This document shows, one piece after another, positions 17,198 through 26,985 of a stretch of 64,000 bases of DNA (within the stretch, counting starts at the first letter, position 1; each line of letters begins with the position of its first letter). Location of the stretch: positions 1 to 64,000 of the forward strand of contig NZ_JZTW01000004.1 of NCBI RefSeq assembly GCF_000962805.1, read 5' to 3'. The notes beneath the pieces are model-generated. The model searched no databases. It saw only the letters and a program-made list of their open reading frames with translations, and was not told the DNA's origin. A program made the position numbers and the translations under genes. This stretch comes from Pseudarthrobacter chlorophenolicus (lineage in GTDB: Bacteria > Actinomycetota > Actinomycetes > Actinomycetales > Micrococcaceae).

Positions 17198-18163
17198 ATG
17201 ACGCACGCAATCGTCGCACGCCAGGCAGGCGGACCGGAAGTCCTGGAGTACACGGAGGTTGACCGCCCGGTCCCGGGCCCAGGACAGCTGCTGGTCAGGG
17301 TTGGGGCGGCCGGGGTCAACTTCATTGATACCTACAAGCGCGGCGGTGTCTACAAGGTCCAGTACCCTTTCATCCCCGGCTCCGAAGCCGCCGGCACGGT
17401 GGAAGCGGTGGGTGAGGGTGTGACCGCGTTCGCGGCAGGGGACCGCGTGGCCACGGCCGAGGGCGTCAACTGTTACGCCGAGTATGCGCTGGTAGATGAG
17501 GACGCCGCGCTCCCGGTTCCAGCCGGGCTGGATGACTTTACGGCCGCAGCCCTCCCCCTGCAGGGCATGACCGCGCACTACCTGATGAACTCCACTTTCA
17601 AGGTGGAACCCGGCCACACCGTCCTGCTGCATGCCGGCGCCGGCGGCGTGGGACTGCTCCTCATCCAACTGCTGAAGGCCCGCGGCGCTGAGGTCATCAC
17701 CACGGTTTCCACCGACGACAAGGAACAGCTGGCACGTGAAGCCGGTGCTGACCACGTGCTGCGGTATGACGGCTTCTCCGCCAGGGTCCGGGAAATCACC
17801 GGTGGCACCGGCGCGGATGTGGTGTATGACGGCGTCGGCAAGGACACGTTCGACGGCTCACTGGAGGCTCTCCGGATCCGCGGAACCCTGGTTCTCTTCG
17901 GCGCCGCGTCAGGCCCGGTCCCGCCGGTGGATCCGCAGCGCCTCAACGCCGGCGGCTCGCTGTTCCTGACCCGGCCCACCATGGGGCATTACCTCCAGGA
18001 TGCCGCCGAAAGGCGCTGGCGTTCCGGCGAAATCTTTGCGGCGGCGGCGGACGGCACCCTGAAGGTCCGCATCGGCGCACGCTATCCGCTGTCCCAGGCG
18101 GAGCAGGCGCACCGGGACCTCGAAGGCCGCCGCACCACCGGAAAGGTAGTCCTGGTTCCCTGA
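17198..18163 (+). CDS. NADPH:quinone oxidoreductase (zeta-crystallin type)
   Basis: 321-residue member of the zinc-free medium-chain reductases. GVNFIDTYKRGGVYKV and PFIPGSEAAGTV are typical of QorA, and the nucleotide site is LLHAGAGGVGLLLIQL. It should reduce quinones with one electron using NADPH in the cytoplasm. It has a good ribosome site (GGGGAAG) before ATG. TAGGAT at about 17144-17149 could be its -10 box. It is divergent from the arg block and 108 nt upstream of the NRPS gene. Confidence 0.92.
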   Translation: MTHAIVARQAGGPEVLEYTEVDRPVPGPGQLLVRVGAAGVNFIDTYKRGGVYKVQYPFIPGSEAAGTVEAVGEGVTAFAAGDRVATAEGVNCYAEYALVDEDAALPVPAGLDDFTAAALPLQGMTAHYLMNSTFKVEPGHTVLLHAGAGGVGLLLIQLLKARGAEVITTVSTDDKEQLAREAGADHVLRYDGFSARVREITGGTGADVVYDGVGKDTFDGSLEALRIRGTLVLFGAASGPVPPVDPQRLNAGGSLFLTRPTMGHYLQDAAERRWRSGEIFAAAADGTLKVRIGARYPLSQAEQAHRDLEGRRTTGKVVLVP

Positions 18164-18271
18164 GGCCGGGCCGCCACGGCTGAACGTGCGGTGAACAGCC
18201 AGTCCCGCCAGGCTGGCGGAACCCGGCGCGCCGGACACCTGTTGTTCACCTTGCCGGGGCAAAATGCCCGG

Positions 18272-21200
18272 GTGACTCAGCAGCAGGTCCCTCTGGGGGA
18301 TATCCATTCCGGCGCCGTGCCGGCCACGCCCCATCAGTCCGGCGGTTTCCAGCCCGCTGGGTCCCCGGAACCGGTGCCCGCGGGCGCCTCAACCCCGGGT
18401 ACGGCCCAGCCTCAGGGCGCGCACGCTCCGCAGTTTCCGGGTGCATCGGCCGCACCGCCCATCCGGACGCTGATTGATATCCTCCAGGACTCCGCCGCCC
18501 GCTTTCCCGACGCATCGGCGCTCGACGACGGCCGTGTGTCGCTCAGTTACGCGCAGCTTATGGACGAGGTACGGTCCGCCGGCCGCCGCCTCCACCGGGC
18601 GGGCCTGGGTGCCGGCGACCGCATCGGCGTGCGGATTCCTTCGGGCACCAACGAGCTGTATGTGTCGATCCTTGCCGTCCTGCTGGTGGGCGGGGCCTAC
18701 GTCCCGGTCGACGCGGACGATCCCGACGAACGGGCCCGGCTGGTTTTTAACGAAGCCAAGGTCGCCGCCGTGGTGGAAGGCGGGCAGGTGATCAGCCCCG
18801 GCACGGCTGGAGGCCGCCGCCCAGGGCCCTTTGCGGGCGCCCGCCCGCCTGTGCCGGACGACGATGCGTGGATCATCTTCACCTCCGGCTCCACCGGAAC
18901 ACCCAAGGGAGTGGCGGTCCGGCACCGCTCGGCCGCCGCGTTCGTGGACGCCGAGGCAAGGATCTTCCTTCAGGGCGAGCCGTTGGGTCCCCAGGACCGG
19001 GTGCTGGCCGGGCTCTCCGTGGCCTTCGACGCTTCCTGCGAAGAGATGTGGCTGGCCTGGCGGCATGGCGCCTGCCTGGTACCCGCACCCCGCGCGCTGG
19101 TCCGTACAGGCATGGACCTTGGCCCCTGGCTGATCAATCACGGCATCACCGCCGTTTCCACAGTCCCCACCCTCGCGGCGCTGTGGCCCGCTGAATCCCT
19201 GGAAAACGTCCGCCTGCTCATCTTCGGCGGCGAAGCCTGCCCACCCGAACTGGCGGAGCGCCTTGCAGTGGAGGGCCGCGAGGTCTGGAACACCTATGGT
19301 CCCACCGAAGCGACCGTGGTTGCCTGCGCCGCCCCCTTGGGCGGTTCCGGCCCCGTGCGGATTGGCCTGCCCCTGGACGGCTGGGACCTCGCCGTCGTCG
19401 ACGCCCTTGGCGTTCCGGTGCCCGAAGGCGGGACGGGTGAGCTGATCATTAGCGGCGTGGGGCTGGCCCGCTACCTCGACCCCGCCAAGGACGCCGAAAA
19501 ATACGCTCCCATGCCCAGCCTGGGCTGGGAGCGTGCGTACCGCTCCGGTGACCTCGTCCGCTTCGAGCAGGCAGGCCTCATCTTCCAGGGCCGCGCCGAC
19601 GAACAGGTCAAACTGGGCGGCCGCAGGATCGAGCTCGGCGAAATCGACTCCGCCATGCAGTCGCTGCCAGGGGTTGCCGGTGCGGCCGCCGCCGTACAGA
19701 CGACGGCGGCCGGCAACCAAATCCTGGTGGGCTACCTGGCTCCTGCTGCCGGAGCGGACCTGGACCTTGCTGAGGCACGCGGGCACCTTGCAGGAAGCCT
19801 GCCGGCTGCGCTGGTGCCCCTCCTGACGGTGGTGGATTCGCTGCCCACCAAGACCAGCGGCAAGGTGGACAGGCACGCCCTGCCCTGGCCACTCGCCGGT
19901 GCCGGCGCAGCGGAGGCGGACGCTGCACCCCTGAACCTGCCAGGGGACGCCGCCTGGATCGTGGAGCAATGGAGCAGCATCCTGGGCAGTCCGGTGACAT
20001 CGCTGGACGCGGACTTCTTTGCGTACGGCGGCGGATCCCTGTCCGCCGCGCAGCTGGTCTCCGCGCTCCGGGTCCGCTATCCCACCATTACGGTGGCCGA
20101 TATTTACGCCACACCCCGGGTGGGAGCACTGGTGGAGTTGGCACGGCAGTCGCAGCCCGATGGCTCCTTGGGCCCAGCCAGGGACCGCACCGTGCGGCCC
20201 ACTGCACGCAAATCCCAGGTGTTCCAGACGCTGATGGGCGTGCCGCTGCACATTTTGGTGGGCATGCGCTGGCTGACCTACCTGATGGCGGCCAACAACC
20301 TGCTGGCATCGCTGGCCGGGTTCACCGCAGCACCAACTGTTTCGTGGTGGTGGGTGGCGGCCTCCTGGCTGGTGTTTGTCAGCCCGGCAGGACGGATGCT
20401 GCTGGCGGTTGCCGCCGCACGGTTCCTGCTGCGCGGTGTTCGGCCCGGCACGTATCCGCGTTCCGGGCGGGTCCACCTCCGGCTGTGGCTGGCGGAGCAG
20501 ATCCAGGACCTTGCCGGAGCCATCAGCCTGGCCAGCGCACCATGGGTTCCCTATTACGCCCGCGCGCTGGGCGCGAAGATTGGCCGGGACGTCCAGCTGC
20601 ATTCGCTGCCGCCGGTTACCGGGCTGCTGACGCTGGGCCGGGGCGCCAACGTGGAGCCGGAGGTGGATCTGTCCGGGTGGTGGATCGACGGCGACCACGT
20701 CCACATCGGCGCCGTCCGCATCGGCGCCGGCGCGTCGGTGGGGGCCCGCAGCACGCTGATGCCTGGAACGTCCATCGGCGCCGGGGCGCAGGTGGAAACG
20801 GGCTCGGCGGTCTCCGGGAAGGTCAAGGCCGGGCAGCTGGTGGCGGGCTCGCCGGCCCGCCGGCAGGGAAAAGCCAAGCATTCCGCTCCGGAAGCGCCGG
20901 TCCTGGGCCCCGTGGCCGCGAAAGCCTGGTTCGGCGGCTTCGCGCTGGCCTCGGCAGTACTGTCCCTTATCCCTTTCGTGTCCGCAGCGGCGGCAGCCTG
21001 GGTGGCGTACCTGTTCATCCAGGGCGGGGCGTCCCTCAGCGGCTCACTGCCCCGGCTCCTGCCGGCCCTGGCACCGGCCGCGCTCACCTGGTTTGCCGCG
21101 AACGCCCTCCTCATCCTGGCCGCGACACGGCTCCTCAGCGTTGGCATCACCGAGGGCTACCACCGGGTCCGCAGCAGGGTGGGCTGGCAAATCTGGGCCA

Positions 21201-22324
21201 CCGAACGGGTCCTCGACCTTGCCAGGGACCTGCTGTTTCCCATCTACGCCAGCCTTTTCACACCGGTGTGGCTGCGCCTGCTGGGAGCCAAAATCGGCAG
21301 GAACGTGGAAGCCTCCACGGTGCTGCTGATCCCCACGATGACCACGGTGGGGGAAGGCGCCTTCCTTGCGGACGACACCATGGTGGCCTCCTACGAGCTG
21401 GATGGCGGGTGGCTGCGCGTTGCCCCGGCCAAGATCGGCAAACGGTCCTTCCTGGGCAACTCCGGCATGACCGCGGCGGGCCGGAACGTCCCCAAGAACT
21501 CGCTGGTGGCTGTCCTGTCCGCCACGCCGGCCAAGGCCAAGTCCGGCACCTCCTGGCTGGGCAGTCCGCCTGTCCGCCTCCGCCGCACAGCCATCGCCTC
21601 GGATGACACCCGGACCTTCCAGCCTCCGCTGAAGCTCAAGGTTGCCAGGACGCTGTGGGAGCTCTGCCGGTTCGTTCCCGTCATGCTCACGGTGGGCATC
21701 GCCGGCGGCGCCATGCTGGTCTTCGACTGGTTGGCCGCCACCTTCAGCTACGGAGTGGCAGCACTGCTCAGCGGGGTCGTCATGCTGCTGGCCGGTTTTG
21801 TCGCGGCGCTCTTCGCCGTCGCCGCCAAGTGGATCCTGGTGGGACGGATCCGGGCTGGCGAGCACCCCCTCTGGAGCTCGTTTATCTGGCGCAACGAAGT
21901 GGTGGACAGCTTCATCGAACTGGTCAGCGCACCGTGGTTCGCCCGGGCCGCGTCCGGTACCCCTGCGCTGGTCTGGTGGCTGCGTGCGCTCGGAGCGAAG
22001 ATCGGCACGGGCACCTGGTGCGAAAGCTACTGGCTGCCCGAGGCGGACCTGGTGACCCTCGGCCGGAACGCCACCGTGAACCGGGGCTGCGTGGTCCAGA
22101 CGCACCTGTTCCACGACAGGGTGATGAGCATTGACGCTGTTACCCTCGAAGACGGGGCCACCATGGGCCCGCACGGGGTCATCCTGCCCCAGGCCAGCGT
22201 GGGTGCCGGCGGAACGGTGGGTCCCGCGTCCCTGGTGATGCGCGGCGAGTCCGTCCCGGCCGCCACGTACTGGATGGGCAACCCGGTCAGCCCATGGAAC
22301 GGCCCTGCAACACCGTCTGCCTAG
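18272..22324 (+). CDS. Pls/PosA-family membrane-bound non-ribosomal peptide synthetase
   Basis: About 1350 residues from GTG at 18272 (an in-frame GTG at 18191 would add 27 unconserved residues). The adenylation domain (about 65-540) has IIFTSGSTGTPKG, NTYGPTEA, YRSGDLV and the lysine motif PTKTSGKVDR. A carrier domain follows with its attachment Ser in YGGGSLSAAQL (about 589). The C-terminal half has three repeats, each two membrane spans plus a left-handed beta-helix acyltransferase-like domain beginning LGAKIG (about 763, 1003 and 1238). This is the layout of epsilon-poly-lysine synthetase (Pls). The pocket reads FDASCEEM, with Glu where gramicidin synthetase has Trp239, which suggests a basic amino acid. 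The product is unknown. The M1 peptidase gene follows after 15 nt; a phosphopantetheinyl transferase gene is close by. Confidence 0.9.
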   Translation: MTQQQVPLGDIHSGAVPATPHQSGGFQPAGSPEPVPAGASTPGTAQPQGAHAPQFPGASAAPPIRTLIDILQDSAARFPDASALDDGRVSLSYAQLMDEVRSAGRRLHRAGLGAGDRIGVRIPSGTNELYVSILAVLLVGGAYVPVDADDPDERARLVFNEAKVAAVVEGGQVISPGTAGGRRPGPFAGARPPVPDDDAWIIFTSGSTGTPKGVAVRHRSAAAFVDAEARIFLQGEPLGPQDRVLAGLSVAFDASCEEMWLAWRHGACLVPAPRALVRTGMDLGPWLINHGITAVSTVPTLAALWPAESLENVRLLIFGGEACPPELAERLAVEGREVWNTYGPTEATVVACAAPLGGSGPVRIGLPLDGWDLAVVDALGVPVPEGGTGELIISGVGLARYLDPAKDAEKYAPMPSLGWERAYRSGDLVRFEQAGLIFQGRADEQVKLGGRRIELGEIDSAMQSLPGVAGAAAAVQTTAAGNQILVGYLAPAAGADLDLAEARGHLAGSLPAALVPLLTVVDSLPTKTSGKVDRHALPWPLAGAGAAEADAAPLNLPGDAAWIVEQWSSILGSPVTSLDADFFAYGGGSLSAAQLVSALRVRYPTITVADIYATPRVGALVELARQSQPDGSLGPARDRTVRPTARKSQVFQTLMGVPLHILVGMRWLTYLMAANNLLASLAGFTAAPTVSWWWVAASWLVFVSPAGRMLLAVAAARFLLRGVRPGTYPRSGRVHLRLWLAEQIQDLAGAISLASAPWVPYYARALGAKIGRDVQLHSLPPVTGLLTLGRGANVEPEVDLSGWWIDGDHVHIGAVRIGAGASVGARSTLMPGTSIGAGAQVETGSAVSGKVKAGQLVAGSPARRQGKAKHSAPEAPVLGPVAAKAWFGGFALASAVLSLIPFVSAAAAAWVAYLFIQGGASLSGSLPRLLPALAPAALTWFAANALLILAATRLLSVGITEGYHRVRSRVGWQIWATERVLDLARDLLFPIYASLFTPVWLRLLGAKIGRNVEASTVLLIPTMTTVGEGAFLADDTMVASYELDGGWLRVAPAKIGKRSFLGNSGMTAAGRNVPKNSLVAVLSATPAKAKSGTSWLGSPPVRLRRTAIASDDTRTFQPPLKLKVARTLWELCRFVPVMLTVGIAGGAMLVFDWLAATFSYGVAALLSGVVMLLAGFVAALFAVAAKWILVGRIRAGEHPLWSSFIWRNEVVDSFIELVSAPWFARAASGTPALVWWLRALGAKIGTGTWCESYWLPEADLVTLGRNATVNRGCVVQTHLFHDRVMSIDAVTLEDGATMGPHGVILPQASVGAGGTVGPASLVMRGESVPAATYWMGNPVSPWNGPATPSA

Positions 22325-22339
22325 CAACCGAAGGTCGCC

Positions 22340-23698
22340 ATGAGTTCTCCAGCATCAGCCGCCCGCGGCAGCGTGGCCGCGTCCAGCGGTGCTGCCCCCG
22401 ATCCTTACATGCCGGGTGCGGGCACCAACGCCTACACGGTGGAACGCTACGAACTGGACCTCGATTACCGCGTGGCCAGCAACCGCCTGAGCGGCAGGGC
22501 GGTGCTGCACGGCGTTGCCTGCCTGCCGACGTCGGCCATTGTCCTCGACCTGGTGGGCCTTCGCGCCACCAAGGTCCAGCTCAACGGGAGGCAAGCGCGG
22601 TTCAACCAGCGCGCCGAGCAGCTGGTGGTCTCAACCCCTGCTCCCCTCCAGGCGGACGAGCCCTTCACCCTCGACGTCCGCTACGGGGGCAGCCCGTCGC
22701 CGCGGCGGGGCCTGTGGGGCGAAGTGGGCTGGGAAGAACTGACCGACGGCGTGCTGGTGGCCGGGCAGCCCAACGGCGCACCATCCTGGTTTCCGTGCAA
22801 CGACCATCCCCGCGACAAGGCCAGCTACAGGTTCACGGTGACCACCGACGCGAACTACCGCGCCGTCTGCAACGGGGCCCTGCAGTCCAGGACCACCCGG
22901 TCCAGCCGCGAAACCTGGACCTACGAACAGGCTGAGCCGATGCCCGCATACCTGGCCACGGTGCAAATCGGCCGGTACGGGCTGCTGGAACTCGACGCCG
23001 GGCGGTCCGGAACTCAGGTGCCGCAGTCGGTTGCGGTCTCCCCCGCCCTCGCCGACCAGGCACGCGCCGGGCTGGCTCTGCAGCCGGCCATGATGCGGAC
23101 GTTCAGCAGCTGCTTCGGACCGTATCCCTTTACCGGCTATACGGTGGTGGTCACCGAGGACGAACTGGAAATTCCCCTGGAAGCCCAGGGGATGTCCATC
23201 CTGGGCCCAAACCATTTGAACGCCGACTGGGAATCGCAGCGGCTGATTGCCCATGAGCTCTCGCACCAGTGGTTCGGTAACTCCCTCACGGTGGCCAGCT
23301 GGCAGGACATCTGGCTCCACGAGGGCTTCGCCTGCTACGCCGAGTGGATCTGGTCCGAGGAAGCCGGCGTGATGTCCGTTGCCGCCCGCGCCGGCGCGGC
23401 GTGGCGGCGCCTCAAGGCCGAAGCGCAGGACCTCCTGGTGGGCGACCCCGGGCCAGAGCACATGTTTGATGACCGGGTTTACAAGCGGGGCGCCTTGGCC
23501 GTCCACGCGGTCCGCGTTGCGGTGGGTGACCTTGCCTTCTTCGCGCTGCTGCAGGAGTGGACATCCGCCCACCGGCACGGCTCGGTCAGCACCCACGACT
23601 TCATCATGGCCGTGGACCGTGCCACCGCCATCGACACGGAGGCGCTGCTCCACCCGTGGCTGTACGAGGAGCTGCTGCCGCCGCTGCCCGCCGGCTGA
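22340..23698 (+). CDS. M1-family zinc aminopeptidase (short form)
   Basis: 452 residues, with the gluzincin site HELSHQWFGN and, 18 residues later, the third ligand Glu in HEGFACYAEW. The N-terminal part is the beta-sandwich of M1 enzymes. QGMSILG replaces the usual GAMEN exopeptidase motif, as in other actinobacterial short M1 proteins, and the C-terminal helical domain is reduced. No signal peptide is seen. Ribosome site GAAGG is present. It is only 15 nt after the NRPS gene and likely shares its mRNA, so it may trim or degrade the NRPS product, although such pairing is also seen by chance in this family. Confidence 0.9.
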   Translation: MSSPASAARGSVAASSGAAPDPYMPGAGTNAYTVERYELDLDYRVASNRLSGRAVLHGVACLPTSAIVLDLVGLRATKVQLNGRQARFNQRAEQLVVSTPAPLQADEPFTLDVRYGGSPSPRRGLWGEVGWEELTDGVLVAGQPNGAPSWFPCNDHPRDKASYRFTVTTDANYRAVCNGALQSRTTRSSRETWTYEQAEPMPAYLATVQIGRYGLLELDAGRSGTQVPQSVAVSPALADQARAGLALQPAMMRTFSSCFGPYPFTGYTVVVTEDELEIPLEAQGMSILGPNHLNADWESQRLIAHELSHQWFGNSLTVASWQDIWLHEGFACYAEWIWSEEAGVMSVAARAGAAWRRLKAEAQDLLVGDPGPEHMFDDRVYKRGALAVHAVRVAVGDLAFFALLQEWTSAHRHGSVSTHDFIMAVDRATAIDTEALLHPWLYEELLPPLPAG

Positions 23699-23711
23699 CG
23701 TCGCTAAAGGA

Positions 23712-24404
23712 CTATCCGGACGGGGAAAGCGCGACGGCGGCCGCCAGGCGCGCGGGCAGCCCGGTTTCGGCAGGGGCCAGGTCCCTCAGGCCCGGCAATG
23801 TCCGGACGTCCAGGGAGGACGGGGCGGTGCGGAGTCCGGCTCCGGTCATCTTCAGCCAGGCTTCCTTCCGTGCCCACAGCCTCGCATGTTCCGCCGGCAG
23901 CGCCTTCGGCGCCACGTCCCTCATGGCTTCCCGCTCCGCCGGGGCCAGGGCAAGCTCGGTGAATCCTTTGAAATCAGTGCGGTCCGGGTCTTCGATGTCC
24001 ACCCCCAGCCGGACTTCCGGTCCGGCGTCCGGTACCGCGGCCAGCAAGGTCCAGCCGGCGGCCCGGGAGAGGCTCAGTGCCAGCGGCAGCCGGGTGCCCC
24101 GGCAAGAGTAACCGGGCCGGCCGTGGCTGACGTCCACGCCGGTTCCGCACTGCGGGCAGCTGGAGGAAGCACGGAGGCCGGCTTCCGGCAGCCCCAGCAG
24201 ACCGGCAGCGAACCTGCGCTGGGCCACTCGTGACACCAGGAAACGGAGGCCGGCAGCCGGCTCCATGGCGCGCCCGCGCTGCAGCTCGGCGTCGTCAAGG
24301 ATCCCTTCTGCCTCTGCCAGGAAGGCGCTTTCCATCTCCGCTGAACCGTCTTGCCCGGGCAGCAAAAAGGGCGGGACGGCACGAACCACGAGATGTGGAG
24401 TCAT
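23712..24404 (-). CDS. 4'-phosphopantetheinyl transferase superfamily protein (Sfp type)
   Basis: 230 residues. The magnesium site is LGVDIEDPDRT and the second signature is WARKEAWLKMTG, both diagnostic of Sfp-like enzymes. A CPQCG ... HGRP segment is typical of actinobacterial members. It attaches phosphopantetheine to carrier domains, so the convergent NRPS carrier is the obvious substrate. It ends 13 nt from the M1 gene stop and starts 37 nt after pheT, so it may be read from the pheST transcript. ATG at 24404 gives a standard N terminus; the longer frame overlaps pheT. Confidence 0.9.
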   Translation of the reverse strand: MTPHLVVRAVPPFLLPGQDGSAEMESAFLAEAEGILDDAELQRGRAMEPAAGLRFLVSRVAQRRFAAGLLGLPEAGLRASSSCPQCGTGVDVSHGRPGYSCRGTRLPLALSLSRAAGWTLLAAVPDAGPEVRLGVDIEDPDRTDFKGFTELALAPAEREAMRDVAPKALPAEHARLWARKEAWLKMTGAGLRTAPSSLDVRTLPGLRDLAPAETGLPARLAAAVALSPSG

Positions 24405-24441: not shown

Positions 24442-26985
24442 CTAGCGCTGGAAAGCCCCGAAACGCTCCGCTGCCAGTGCCACGGCACCCTCGCGGGCGG
24501 CGGACGCCTCGTCAGCTGTCAGGGTGCGGTCCGCGGCGCGGAACCGCAGGCCGAACGCCAGCGACTTCTTGCCGTCCTCGATGCCCTTGCCGGCGTACAC
24601 ATCGAACAGGGCGACGTCCTCCAGCAGTTCGCCGGCGCCTTCGCGGAGTGCGTCGAGCACGTCGTCTGCCGGAACCTCGGCCGGGACCACCAGCGCCACG
24701 TCCTGGGTCGCCACCGGGAACGTGGAGATGTGGCGGGCCACGATCACGTCCGGTGCGGCCTCGAACAGGGCGTCGGCGTTGAGCTCCAGCGCTACCGAGC
24801 GGGCGGGCATATCAGACGCTGCCAGCAGCTTGGGGTGCAGTTCGCCGGCGTAGCCCACGGTCTCCCCGGTCCGGAGCGACAACTTCGCGGCCCGGCCCGG
24901 GTGGAATGCCTGGTGGGTTCCCTGGCTGGCAACCAGGTCCACGCCGAGGACGTCGCCGGCAAGGCGGGCGATGTCCAGGGCATCCGCCCAGTCCCACACC
25001 CTGGGGGCGTGCGCTGCAGCCGCCGGGGAGTCGTGCCCGGTCAGGACCGCGGCGACGTGGAACGGCTGGTCCGGGACGCCGTCGTACAGCGCGTCCAGCA
25101 CCTCATCGGCGGGCTTGGCGCCCAGCGGCGGGATCGACTCGGTTCCCATGGTCTCGCCGGGCAGGAACACCTGGCCGGATTCGAAGATGGCGAGGTCGCG
25201 GAAGCCGCGGGAGTGGTTGCGCTTGGCCACCTCGATCAGTCCCGGAAGGATGGACGTGCGCAGGAACCCCTGCTCTTCGCTGATCGGGTTGGCCAGCTTG
25301 AGTGCGGGGCGGTCGCCGCCTTGTTCGGCCACGCCGAACGTGTCATTGGCCGCCTTCGAGACGAAGGGGTAGGACAGGACTTCGGTCAGCCCGGCGTCTG
25401 CCAGCGACTGGATGAGCCGGCGGCGCTGCTGCTGGACGCGCGTCAGGCCACGTCCGGGAGGGGCAACCGGCAGCGTGGCGGGGATCTTGTCGTAGCCCAC
25501 CAGCCGGGCGATTTCCTCGGTCAGGTCTTCCTTGGTCTCCAGGTCGTGCCGCCAGCTGGGCGCCGTGACCGTCCAGCCGCCGTCGACCTTGTCTACCGCT
25601 GCACCGAGGTCCGCCAGCGACGTCACGATCTGCTCTTCGGTGAAGTCGATGCCGATGCGTGCGGCCGCGAAGCCTGCCGGCAGGTCAATGGTGACAGTTT
25701 CCGGGGCGGTTCCGACGTCGGTGCCCGCCTCGTCCGCGGTGCCGCCGGCCAGTTCCACGAGGAGGTCCACGACCCGCTGCGCGGCGATGCCGGCCACGTG
25801 CCAGTCGACGCCGCGTTCGAAGCGCTTGGACGCTTCGGACGGCAGCTTGTGCCGGCGCCGGGAACGGCCGATGGATACGTCATCGAAGTGGGCCGCTTCG
25901 ACCAGGATGTTCGACGTCGTGCCGCCCACCTCGGTAGCCGCGCCGCCCATGACGCCTGCGATGCCGATGGCACCGGAGTCGTCGGTGATGAGCAGGTCCT
26001 CGGGATCGAGGGTGCGTTCCTTGTCATCGAGGGTGGTGATCTTCTCGCCTGCGGCTGCACGGCGCACCACGATGTCGCCGGAGAGCTTGTCCAGGTCGTA
26101 GCAGTGCGTGGGCTGGCCCAGTTCGAGCATCACGTAGTTGGAGATGTCCACCGGCAGGGATATGGAGCGGATGCCGGCGAGGCGCAGGCGGGAAGCCATC
26201 CATGGCGGGGTGGGCCGGCTGGGGTCCACGCCGCGGACGGTGCGCGCCACGAAGCGGTCGCAGCCGGGCTTGCCGTAGATGGGGGTGTCGTCGTTGAGCT
26301 TGACGCCGTAGCCGCCGGACAGCACCTCAGGGGCCTGTACCTTGCTGGCAGGGTCCGTGAAGGTGGTTCCCGTGGCGTGCGCGTACTCGCGGGCCGCGCC
26401 ACGGATGGAGAAGGCGTAGCCGCGGTCCGGGGTGACGTTGATTTCGGCCGCCTGGTCGTAGAGGCCCAGCAGTTCCATCGCGTCCGTGCCGATTTCAGGA
26501 TCAAGGCCGATGCGGGAGAGGACCAGGATGCCGTCGTGGTCTTCTCCGATGCCAAGCTCACGGACGGAGGCGATCATGCCCGCGGAGAGGTGTCCGTAGG
26601 TCTTGCGGGCGGAGATGCGGAAATCGCCCGGCAGCACGGCGCCCGGCAGGGTGACCACTACCTTGTCGCCTTCCACGAAGTTGTGGGCGCCGCAGATGAT
26701 GCCCTGGACGCCGGAAGGATCGATGCCCTCGCCGGTGAGGGTCTGTTCCGCGCCTTCGGGGACAACGCGGACCTGGCACCAGTTGATGGTCTTGCCGTTG
26801 GTCTGCGGTTCCTTGACCAGGCTCAGGACCTGGCCCACCACAACCGGCCCCTGCAGGGCATCGGTGGGACGGTGGACGTCCTCTTCCTCGAAGCCGACCT
26901 TAACCAGCTCTTCCATGACATCTTCGGCCGTGGCGCCGGCCGGTACTTCTGCGAATTCACGCAGCCAGGAAAGTGGGATACGCAC
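24442..26985 (-). CDS. pheT: Phenylalanyl-tRNA synthetase beta subunit
   Basis: 847 residues, normal length. It starts MRIPLSWLREFAEVPA, then an EMAP/Arc1p-like tRNA-binding fold (about 40-150, GAHNFVEGDKVVV), the B3/B4 editing domain, the B5 domain and the C-terminal anticodon-binding FDX domain. It forms an alpha2-beta2 enzyme with PheS that charges tRNA-Phe. It begins 2 nt after the pheS stop. Confidence 0.97.
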   Translation of the reverse strand: MRIPLSWLREFAEVPAGATAEDVMEELVKVGFEEEDVHRPTDALQGPVVVGQVLSLVKEPQTNGKTINWCQVRVVPEGAEQTLTGEGIDPSGVQGIICGAHNFVEGDKVVVTLPGAVLPGDFRISARKTYGHLSAGMIASVRELGIGEDHDGILVLSRIGLDPEIGTDAMELLGLYDQAAEINVTPDRGYAFSIRGAAREYAHATGTTFTDPASKVQAPEVLSGGYGVKLNDDTPIYGKPGCDRFVARTVRGVDPSRPTPPWMASRLRLAGIRSISLPVDISNYVMLELGQPTHCYDLDKLSGDIVVRRAAAGEKITTLDDKERTLDPEDLLITDDSGAIGIAGVMGGAATEVGGTTSNILVEAAHFDDVSIGRSRRRHKLPSEASKRFERGVDWHVAGIAAQRVVDLLVELAGGTADEAGTDVGTAPETVTIDLPAGFAAARIGIDFTEEQIVTSLADLGAAVDKVDGGWTVTAPSWRHDLETKEDLTEEIARLVGYDKIPATLPVAPPGRGLTRVQQQRRRLIQSLADAGLTEVLSYPFVSKAANDTFGVAEQGGDRPALKLANPISEEQGFLRTSILPGLIEVAKRNHSRGFRDLAIFESGQVFLPGETMGTESIPPLGAKPADEVLDALYDGVPDQPFHVAAVLTGHDSPAAAAHAPRVWDWADALDIARLAGDVLGVDLVASQGTHQAFHPGRAAKLSLRTGETVGYAGELHPKLLAASDMPARSVALELNADALFEAAPDVIVARHISTFPVATQDVALVVPAEVPADDVLDALREGAGELLEDVALFDVYAGKGIEDGKKSLAFGLRFRAADRTLTADEASAAREGAVALAAERFGAFQR

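Follow-up and report, generated by a model that had tools for sequence, protein, structure and literature searches.

The window, a stretch of 64,000 nucleotides from a contig of Pseudarthrobacter chlorophenolicus, carries three closely packed genes between a quinone oxidoreductase gene (QOR) and pheT (Table 1): pls, which encodes a predicted poly-amino-acid synthetase; a gene for an M1 peptidase, which starts 15 nt past the pls stop on the same strand; and a gene for a Sfp-like phosphopantetheinyl transferase (PPTase), which is convergent with the peptidase gene, 13 nt past its stop, and has its ATG 37 nt after the stop of pheT on the same strand as pheT. The coordinates agree with the two intergenic spacings claimed in a first-pass annotation of this DNA, which had begun pls at 18272, an internal in-frame GTG that is an alternative start of the gene. 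At the left end of the window, positions 1-2000 have a G+C content of 0.602, compared with 0.63-0.71 across the rest.

Table 1. Genes and domains of the pls locus and its flanks (positions in the window)
Feature	Coordinates	Strand	Basis and remarks
QOR, left flank of the insertion site	17198..18163	+	kept beside pheT in 26 Pls-less genomes
pls	18191..22324	+	GTG start, 1377 aa; TIGR02353 706 bits; A domain 647 bits to 7wew
Adenylation (A) domain	18482..19882	+	residues 98-564; PF00501 (AMP-binding) 212.7 bits
Carrier (thiolation) domain	19955..20140	+	residues 589-650; PF00550 41.5 bits
Predicted membrane polymerising domain, three tandem beta-helix units	20219..22288	+	TIGR02353 full length, AlphaFold2 model, motifs
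M1 peptidase, PldII-like, 452 aa	22340..23698	+	PF01433 92.6 bits, PF17900 65 bits
Sfp-like PPTase	23712..24404	-	from ATG, 230 aa; alternative GTG start at 24488; PF01648 45.3 bits
pheT, right flank of the insertion site	24442..26985	-	TIGR00472 602 bits; in 150/150 genomes

The synthetase and its predicted monomer

Pls joins an adenylation domain and a carrier domain to a terminal membrane domain, as is typical of the Pls/PosA family, and its TIGR02353 score of 706 bits stands against a cut-off of 423.1; no condensation or thioesterase domain was found in it among Pfam matches up to an E value of 0.001. The core motifs of the adenylation domain and the serine motif of the carrier (DFFAYGGGS) are intact. 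An AlphaFold2 model of residues 591-1375, made with 47 aligned sequences (mean pLDDT 84.4, pTM 0.87), folds the C-terminal part into three successive units, each with long helices and then short strands of beta-helix, and an exact LGAKIG motif occurs three times (residues 793, 1031, and 1267; nt 20567, 21281, and 21989). Model and motifs together thus place all three C-terminal domains characteristic of Pls in tandem between membrane helix pairs, and along with PF00501, PF00550, and TIGR02353 they bear out the architecture that the first-pass annotation had described: one adenylation domain, one carrier, and three repeats of membrane spans with an LGAKIG beta-helix. The first helix pair is weak by plain hydropathy (one stretch of at least 1.6, at residues 722-740), and a fold search of the model in the PDB led to hexapeptide acyltransferases (best E 2.1e-6) by small local matches (TM-scores normalised by target length are at most 0.5, and the rmsd is large); known folds thus support the model only locally. 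Judged by its domains, the enzyme is a synthetase of the Pls/PosA family.

The nearest solved relative of the adenylation domain is 7wew, from an epsilon-poly-L-lysine synthetase, with 66.5% identity across 477 aligned residues; the next solved relative scores 390 bits. The ten code positions, placed by motif on what we take to be the GrsA numbering, are D280, A281, E284, S323, I344, G346, T368, V376, V377, and K558 (DAESIGTVVK), and all ten are identical in 7wew. The FDASCEEM stretch and pocket Glu of the first-pass annotation are present, the Glu being Glu284 at the third code position. The order of positions agrees with the PosA code as printed in PMC10522769 (DMEHNGTVSK). According to that paper, Asp1 and Glu3 are kept across Pls, PosA, and the enzymes for diaminopropionate (Dap) and diaminobutyrate (Dab) polymers, while position 2, which is tied to chain length, is Ala in Pls, Met in PosA, and Phe in the Dap/Dab enzymes; the window enzyme has Ala there, together with Asp1 and Glu3. 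Since the pocket equals that of 7wew, lysine is the predicted monomer, in line with the cationic amino acid expected earlier. Pocket codes were also read in 49 of the 52 genus Pls in loci L027-L106 (three are incomplete), in 80 named loci, and in 20 further loci of the genus survey: DAESIGTVVK was found in all 49 readable Pls of L027-L106 and in 79 of the 80 named ones, the exception being DAESIGTVIK of Kocuria polaris (L153), downstream of which no peptidase was found.

Second synthetases occur in the genus, with a second TIGR02353 match above the cut-off in at least 30 of the 150 genomes surveyed. Paralogues with the code DFECLSVVTK occur at L276:3193-10407 (G137), L277 (G082), L281 (G106), L007, and L008; their neighbours in L276 and L277 are genes for a Dab transaminase and an aspartate kinase (in L281 the matches are weaker), and they are likely poly-Dab synthetases. 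Divergent Pls with the code DAESIGTVIK occur at L270:2392-7460 (G018), L280 (G043), L271 (G094), and L288 (G072), in addition to L153, and adjoin the lysine-pathway gene dapA in L270 and L280 and not in L271. Read from such gene contexts, the position-2 rule is borne out within the genus. A further locus, L282:3044-13280 (G116), encodes a Pls/PosA terminal domain that has no adenylation domain of its own and is fused to three tandem carriers, with a gene for an SbnA-like diaminopropionate synthase on one side and, on the other, a separate adenylation-carrier protein, after which come genes for a TauD-type oxygenase and an SbnB-like protein; similar loci are L272 and L273 (G088), L274 (G140), and L275 (G045), the gene set being seen in part of these only. 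Loci of this kind are possibly a split, new poly-Dap-like system. Two genomes have a second pls-peptidase pair with no adjoining PPTase gene (L278 in G093, L279 in G020).

Joint presence, absence, and movement of three genes

We surveyed 150 genomes of the window's genus for Pls (TIGR02353 above its cut-off), the peptidase (E at most 1e-60), and the PPTase (E at most 1e-8). Each was found in 123 genomes, and the same 27 genomes were without all three (the last seven absentees for the peptidase and the PPTase were read from gaps in the presence lists). The order QOR, pls, M1 gene, PPTase gene (reversed), pheT (reversed) is kept in 100 of the 150 genomes. Where the three genes are missing the site is empty: QOR adjoins pheT in 26 of the 27 Pls-less genomes, at a spacing of 75-168 nt in 22 and 865-1647 nt in four (L027, L028, L035, and L046), and in the 27th the contig ends.

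Among the 123 Pls-bearing genomes, 112 have the three genes on one contig, the PPTase gene sometimes lying kilobases away (12.3 kb at most, in G046); the locus is split over contigs in G014, G080, and G129, and six genomes (G002, G091, G102, G128, G137, and G140) have Pls and the peptidase with no PPTase at the locus and a PPTase match elsewhere. Measured in 122 loci, the gap between pls and the M1 gene has a median of 77 nt and a range of -2 to 182 nt; between the M1 and PPTase genes the median is 48 nt, from 115 loci. By a crude integrity test 81 of 127 loci are clean in all three genes, and in the other 46 one of the three is short, split, or stop-bearing, a count that mixes contig and alignment ends with real breaks. 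Two genomes (G018 and G072) have the peptidase and PPTase genes without a local Pls, and a third (G094) has these two genes with no more than a remnant of Pls at the locus; each of the three carries elsewhere a divergent DAESIGTVIK Pls, about 50% identical to that of the window, so that in these genomes too the two partners are not seen without a Pls of lysine code.

When mapped on a DNA tree of pheT from all 150 genomes, the locus switches between present and absent 17 times on the best tree and no fewer than 13 times on starred branches, a number that rejects a single loss behind all 27 Pls-less genomes; the count is still 17 without the incomplete genomes G118 and G134. All 13 independent pairs show the three genes changing as one (sign test, p 0.00024), in a test that used one presence vector for all three genes, since their presence sets (123 and 27 genomes) are identical. 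The pheT tree alone does not separate gain from loss. A relocated form of the unit, in which the PPTase gene lies away from pheT and is co-directional with pls and the M1 gene, occurs in G009, G021, G122, G130, and G135 and on one contig of G061; in G021 the three open reading frames overlap. On the Pls tree the Pls of the first five make up a single group, together with that of L174, a named copy of the G135 locus; the pheT tree does not unite their hosts (three changes, p-AU 2.7e-35). One Pls group in scattered hosts points to transfer of the pls-M1-PPTase unit between lineages in the form in which the PPTase gene has been turned into the operon. A second moved group (G016, G048, and G061) keeps the convergent PPTase gene. 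No insertion site shared by the moved cassettes emerged, since the ten flanking open reading frames of three loci have no family in common.

The PPTase has the features of the Sfp type: an ACPS domain, GVDIE and WxxKEA motifs (here GVDIED and WARKEAWLK), and a length above 200 aa. Of the 27 Pls-less genomes, 25 have a single PF01648 match, G099 has two, and the incomplete G118 has none; all 21 Pls-bearing genomes tested have at least two. The single match of the 25 is probably AcpS-like, to judge from its span and score. In four genomes (G035, G003, G063, and G073), whose PPTases are AcpS and the linked enzyme only, no large protein other than Pls has a strong carrier match; the remaining matches are to short proteins and, weakly and in part, to a protein of 844-979 aa that is also present in Pls-less genomes. 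Another Sfp-like PPTase, the second in the genome of the window, is encoded near a multi-carrier NRPS of 3582 aa (G000:C34:181909-192169, outside the window), so the linked enzyme is not the only possible activator of Pls there. Outside the genus survey the link is rare: a PPTase gene lies near pls in 7 of the 80 named loci by the genus profile (L130, L138, L141, L147, L155, L174, and L178, from Arthrobacter, Pseudarthrobacter, Humibacillus, and Brachybacterium) and in 5 of the 80 by a motif search, and we rejected the idea that pls operons in general come with a PPTase. A PF01648 scan covered 48 of the named-locus genomes, with matches tied to loci by coordinates for L138 and L147 only.

The peptidase and the proposed roles of the partner genes

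The peptidase gene lies directly downstream of pls, as expected of a PldII-type enzyme, and the zinc ligands, the catalytic Glu and Tyr, and the Glu of a degenerate GAMEN motif (here IPLEA) are intact in its product and invariant in 53 genus loci and 69 named loci. An M1 peptidase gene follows pls in 69 of the 80 named loci, and at least three of the other 11 (L109, L148, and L159) stop at a contig end. We name the enzyme PldII-like, epsilon-poly-L-lysine hydrolysis being its putative activity. A twin-arginine-like leader (RR and a hydrophobic stretch) is found on the peptidase in eight named Streptomyces loci; no export leader was found in the other 61 of the 69 (the highest hydropathy upstream of the core is 1.21), and within the genus 120 loci from 119 genomes have no stretch of at least 1.4 in that region. 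This census is a hydropathy test with uncertain start codons, four genus loci were unreadable, and non-classical export would escape it. By the same simple test the window peptidase has no export leader and is probably cytosolic, in contrast to PldII of S. albulus, which is reported to lie outside the membrane (PMC9223678).

These observations bear on three other readings of the locus. The first-pass annotation had the peptidase trim the polymer, and its setting the length of exported chains outside the cell would accord with the location reported for S. albulus PldII and with the eight Streptomyces leaders; the lack of a leader in the genus and in most named loci speaks against such a role, as does a review according to which S. 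albulus gave the same yield and the same chain length when Pld and PldII were inactivated (PMC8506220). Trimming of exported polymer is thus unsupported and in our view unlikely, and we rejected it as the lead reading; for a peptidase without a leader outside the eight Streptomyces loci, clearing of polymer inside the cell fits better.

That the PPTase gene is a bystander of the pheST operon which happens to adjoin pls is suggested by its place behind pheT on the same strand, where it may be read from the pheST promoter. The gene is missing, however, from all 26 readable pheT-QOR empty sites, and in the relocated loci it is found away from pheT and turned into the direction of pls and the peptidase gene; we rejected this explanation, to which we give next to no credence. 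A synthetase that works by the same operon logic on another diamine (ornithine, Dab, or Dap) is conceivable for a family credited with several polymers (PMC10522769), but the Ala at position 2, the full identity of the code with 7wew, and the different code of the Dab-type paralogues in the genus make it very unlikely, and monomers other than lysine were rejected on the pocket.

The reading that we favour, with a probability of about 0.8, is that of a pls-pldII-ppt cassette whose predicted products make and handle epsilon-poly-L-lysine; it draws on the domains, the S. albulus-type pocket, the intact catalytic residues of the peptidase, the PPTase motifs, and the joint gain and loss of the genes. 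The PPTase would load phosphopantetheine onto the Pls carrier; the adenylation domain would adenylate L-lysine and load it on the carrier; the three membrane beta-helix units would extend the chain via the side-chain amine and pass it out; and the M1 peptidase may break down polymer left in, or returning into, the cell, as self-protection. Of the roles first proposed, making and activating thus find backing in a Pls/PosA-family synthetase with a lysine pocket and in a PPTase tied to it by co-occurrence. With moderate confidence we go further and regard epsilon-poly-lysine as a three-gene trait of the genus, in which the PPTase would be an obligate, dedicated partner of Pls and the peptidase a cytosolic antidote, the cassette having been repeatedly deleted and regained as a unit, once with the PPTase gene in the operon.

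Known systems and biological meaning

The pls-peptidase pair is of a published kind, a fact absent from the first-pass annotation: pls and pldII of S. albulus are reported to form one operon (PMC4361855), and a pls of the same context from C. variabile is reported to have made epsilon-poly-lysine when expressed in S. coelicolor, with no polymer detectable in culture of C. variabile itself (PMC8117764). The latter paper, of 2021, also names Arthrobacter, Glutamicibacter, and Micrococcus among the genera with Pls homologues, so the central part of the finding was already known; what is added here is the three-gene co-occurrence in 150 genomes, the empty sites, the joint change, and the moved form. 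In the literature that we searched, outside which many subscription papers lie, neither a pls-linked PPTase nor production of poly-lysine by Arthrobacter came up.

With S. albulus the window locus shares the architecture of Pls, the pocket at 10 of 10 positions, and an M1-type peptidase gene directly downstream; it differs in a gap of 15 nt where a 4-nt overlap is published (PMC4361855), in its linked PPTase, of which the Streptomyces loci examined have none by the genus profile, and in a peptidase without the leader found in eight of them. C. variabile has the same gene pair in a coryneform actinobacterium, with the product shown heterologously, and the main text of PMC8117764 has no occurrence of "phosphopantethein", whereas the window has a linked PPTase gene. 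PosA of Acinetobacter baumannii, which makes delta-poly-L-ornithine, is of the same family, with the same domain order and pocket Asp1 and Glu3, but is reported to have Met at position 2 and a single-gene operon (PMC10522769), while the Dab and Dap homopolymer synthetases share the architecture and are reported to have Phe at position 2 and monomer-making genes next door; the window enzyme has Ala. As read from these genomes, the locus is a canonical lysine-type Pls with a PldII-like partner, in a lineage where the PPTase became a third, jointly inherited part.

Since most of the genomes sampled from this common soil genus encode a lysine-code Pls, a polymer used as a food preservative may be produced widely in soil. 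The 27 genomes without Pls amount to natural deletion strains with clean flanks and close Pls-bearing relatives, as in the sister pair of G026 and the Pls-bearing G003, and offer a way to ask about the polymer's role in the cell. The linked PPTase and leaderless peptidase bear on activation of the synthetase and on self-protection of the cell.
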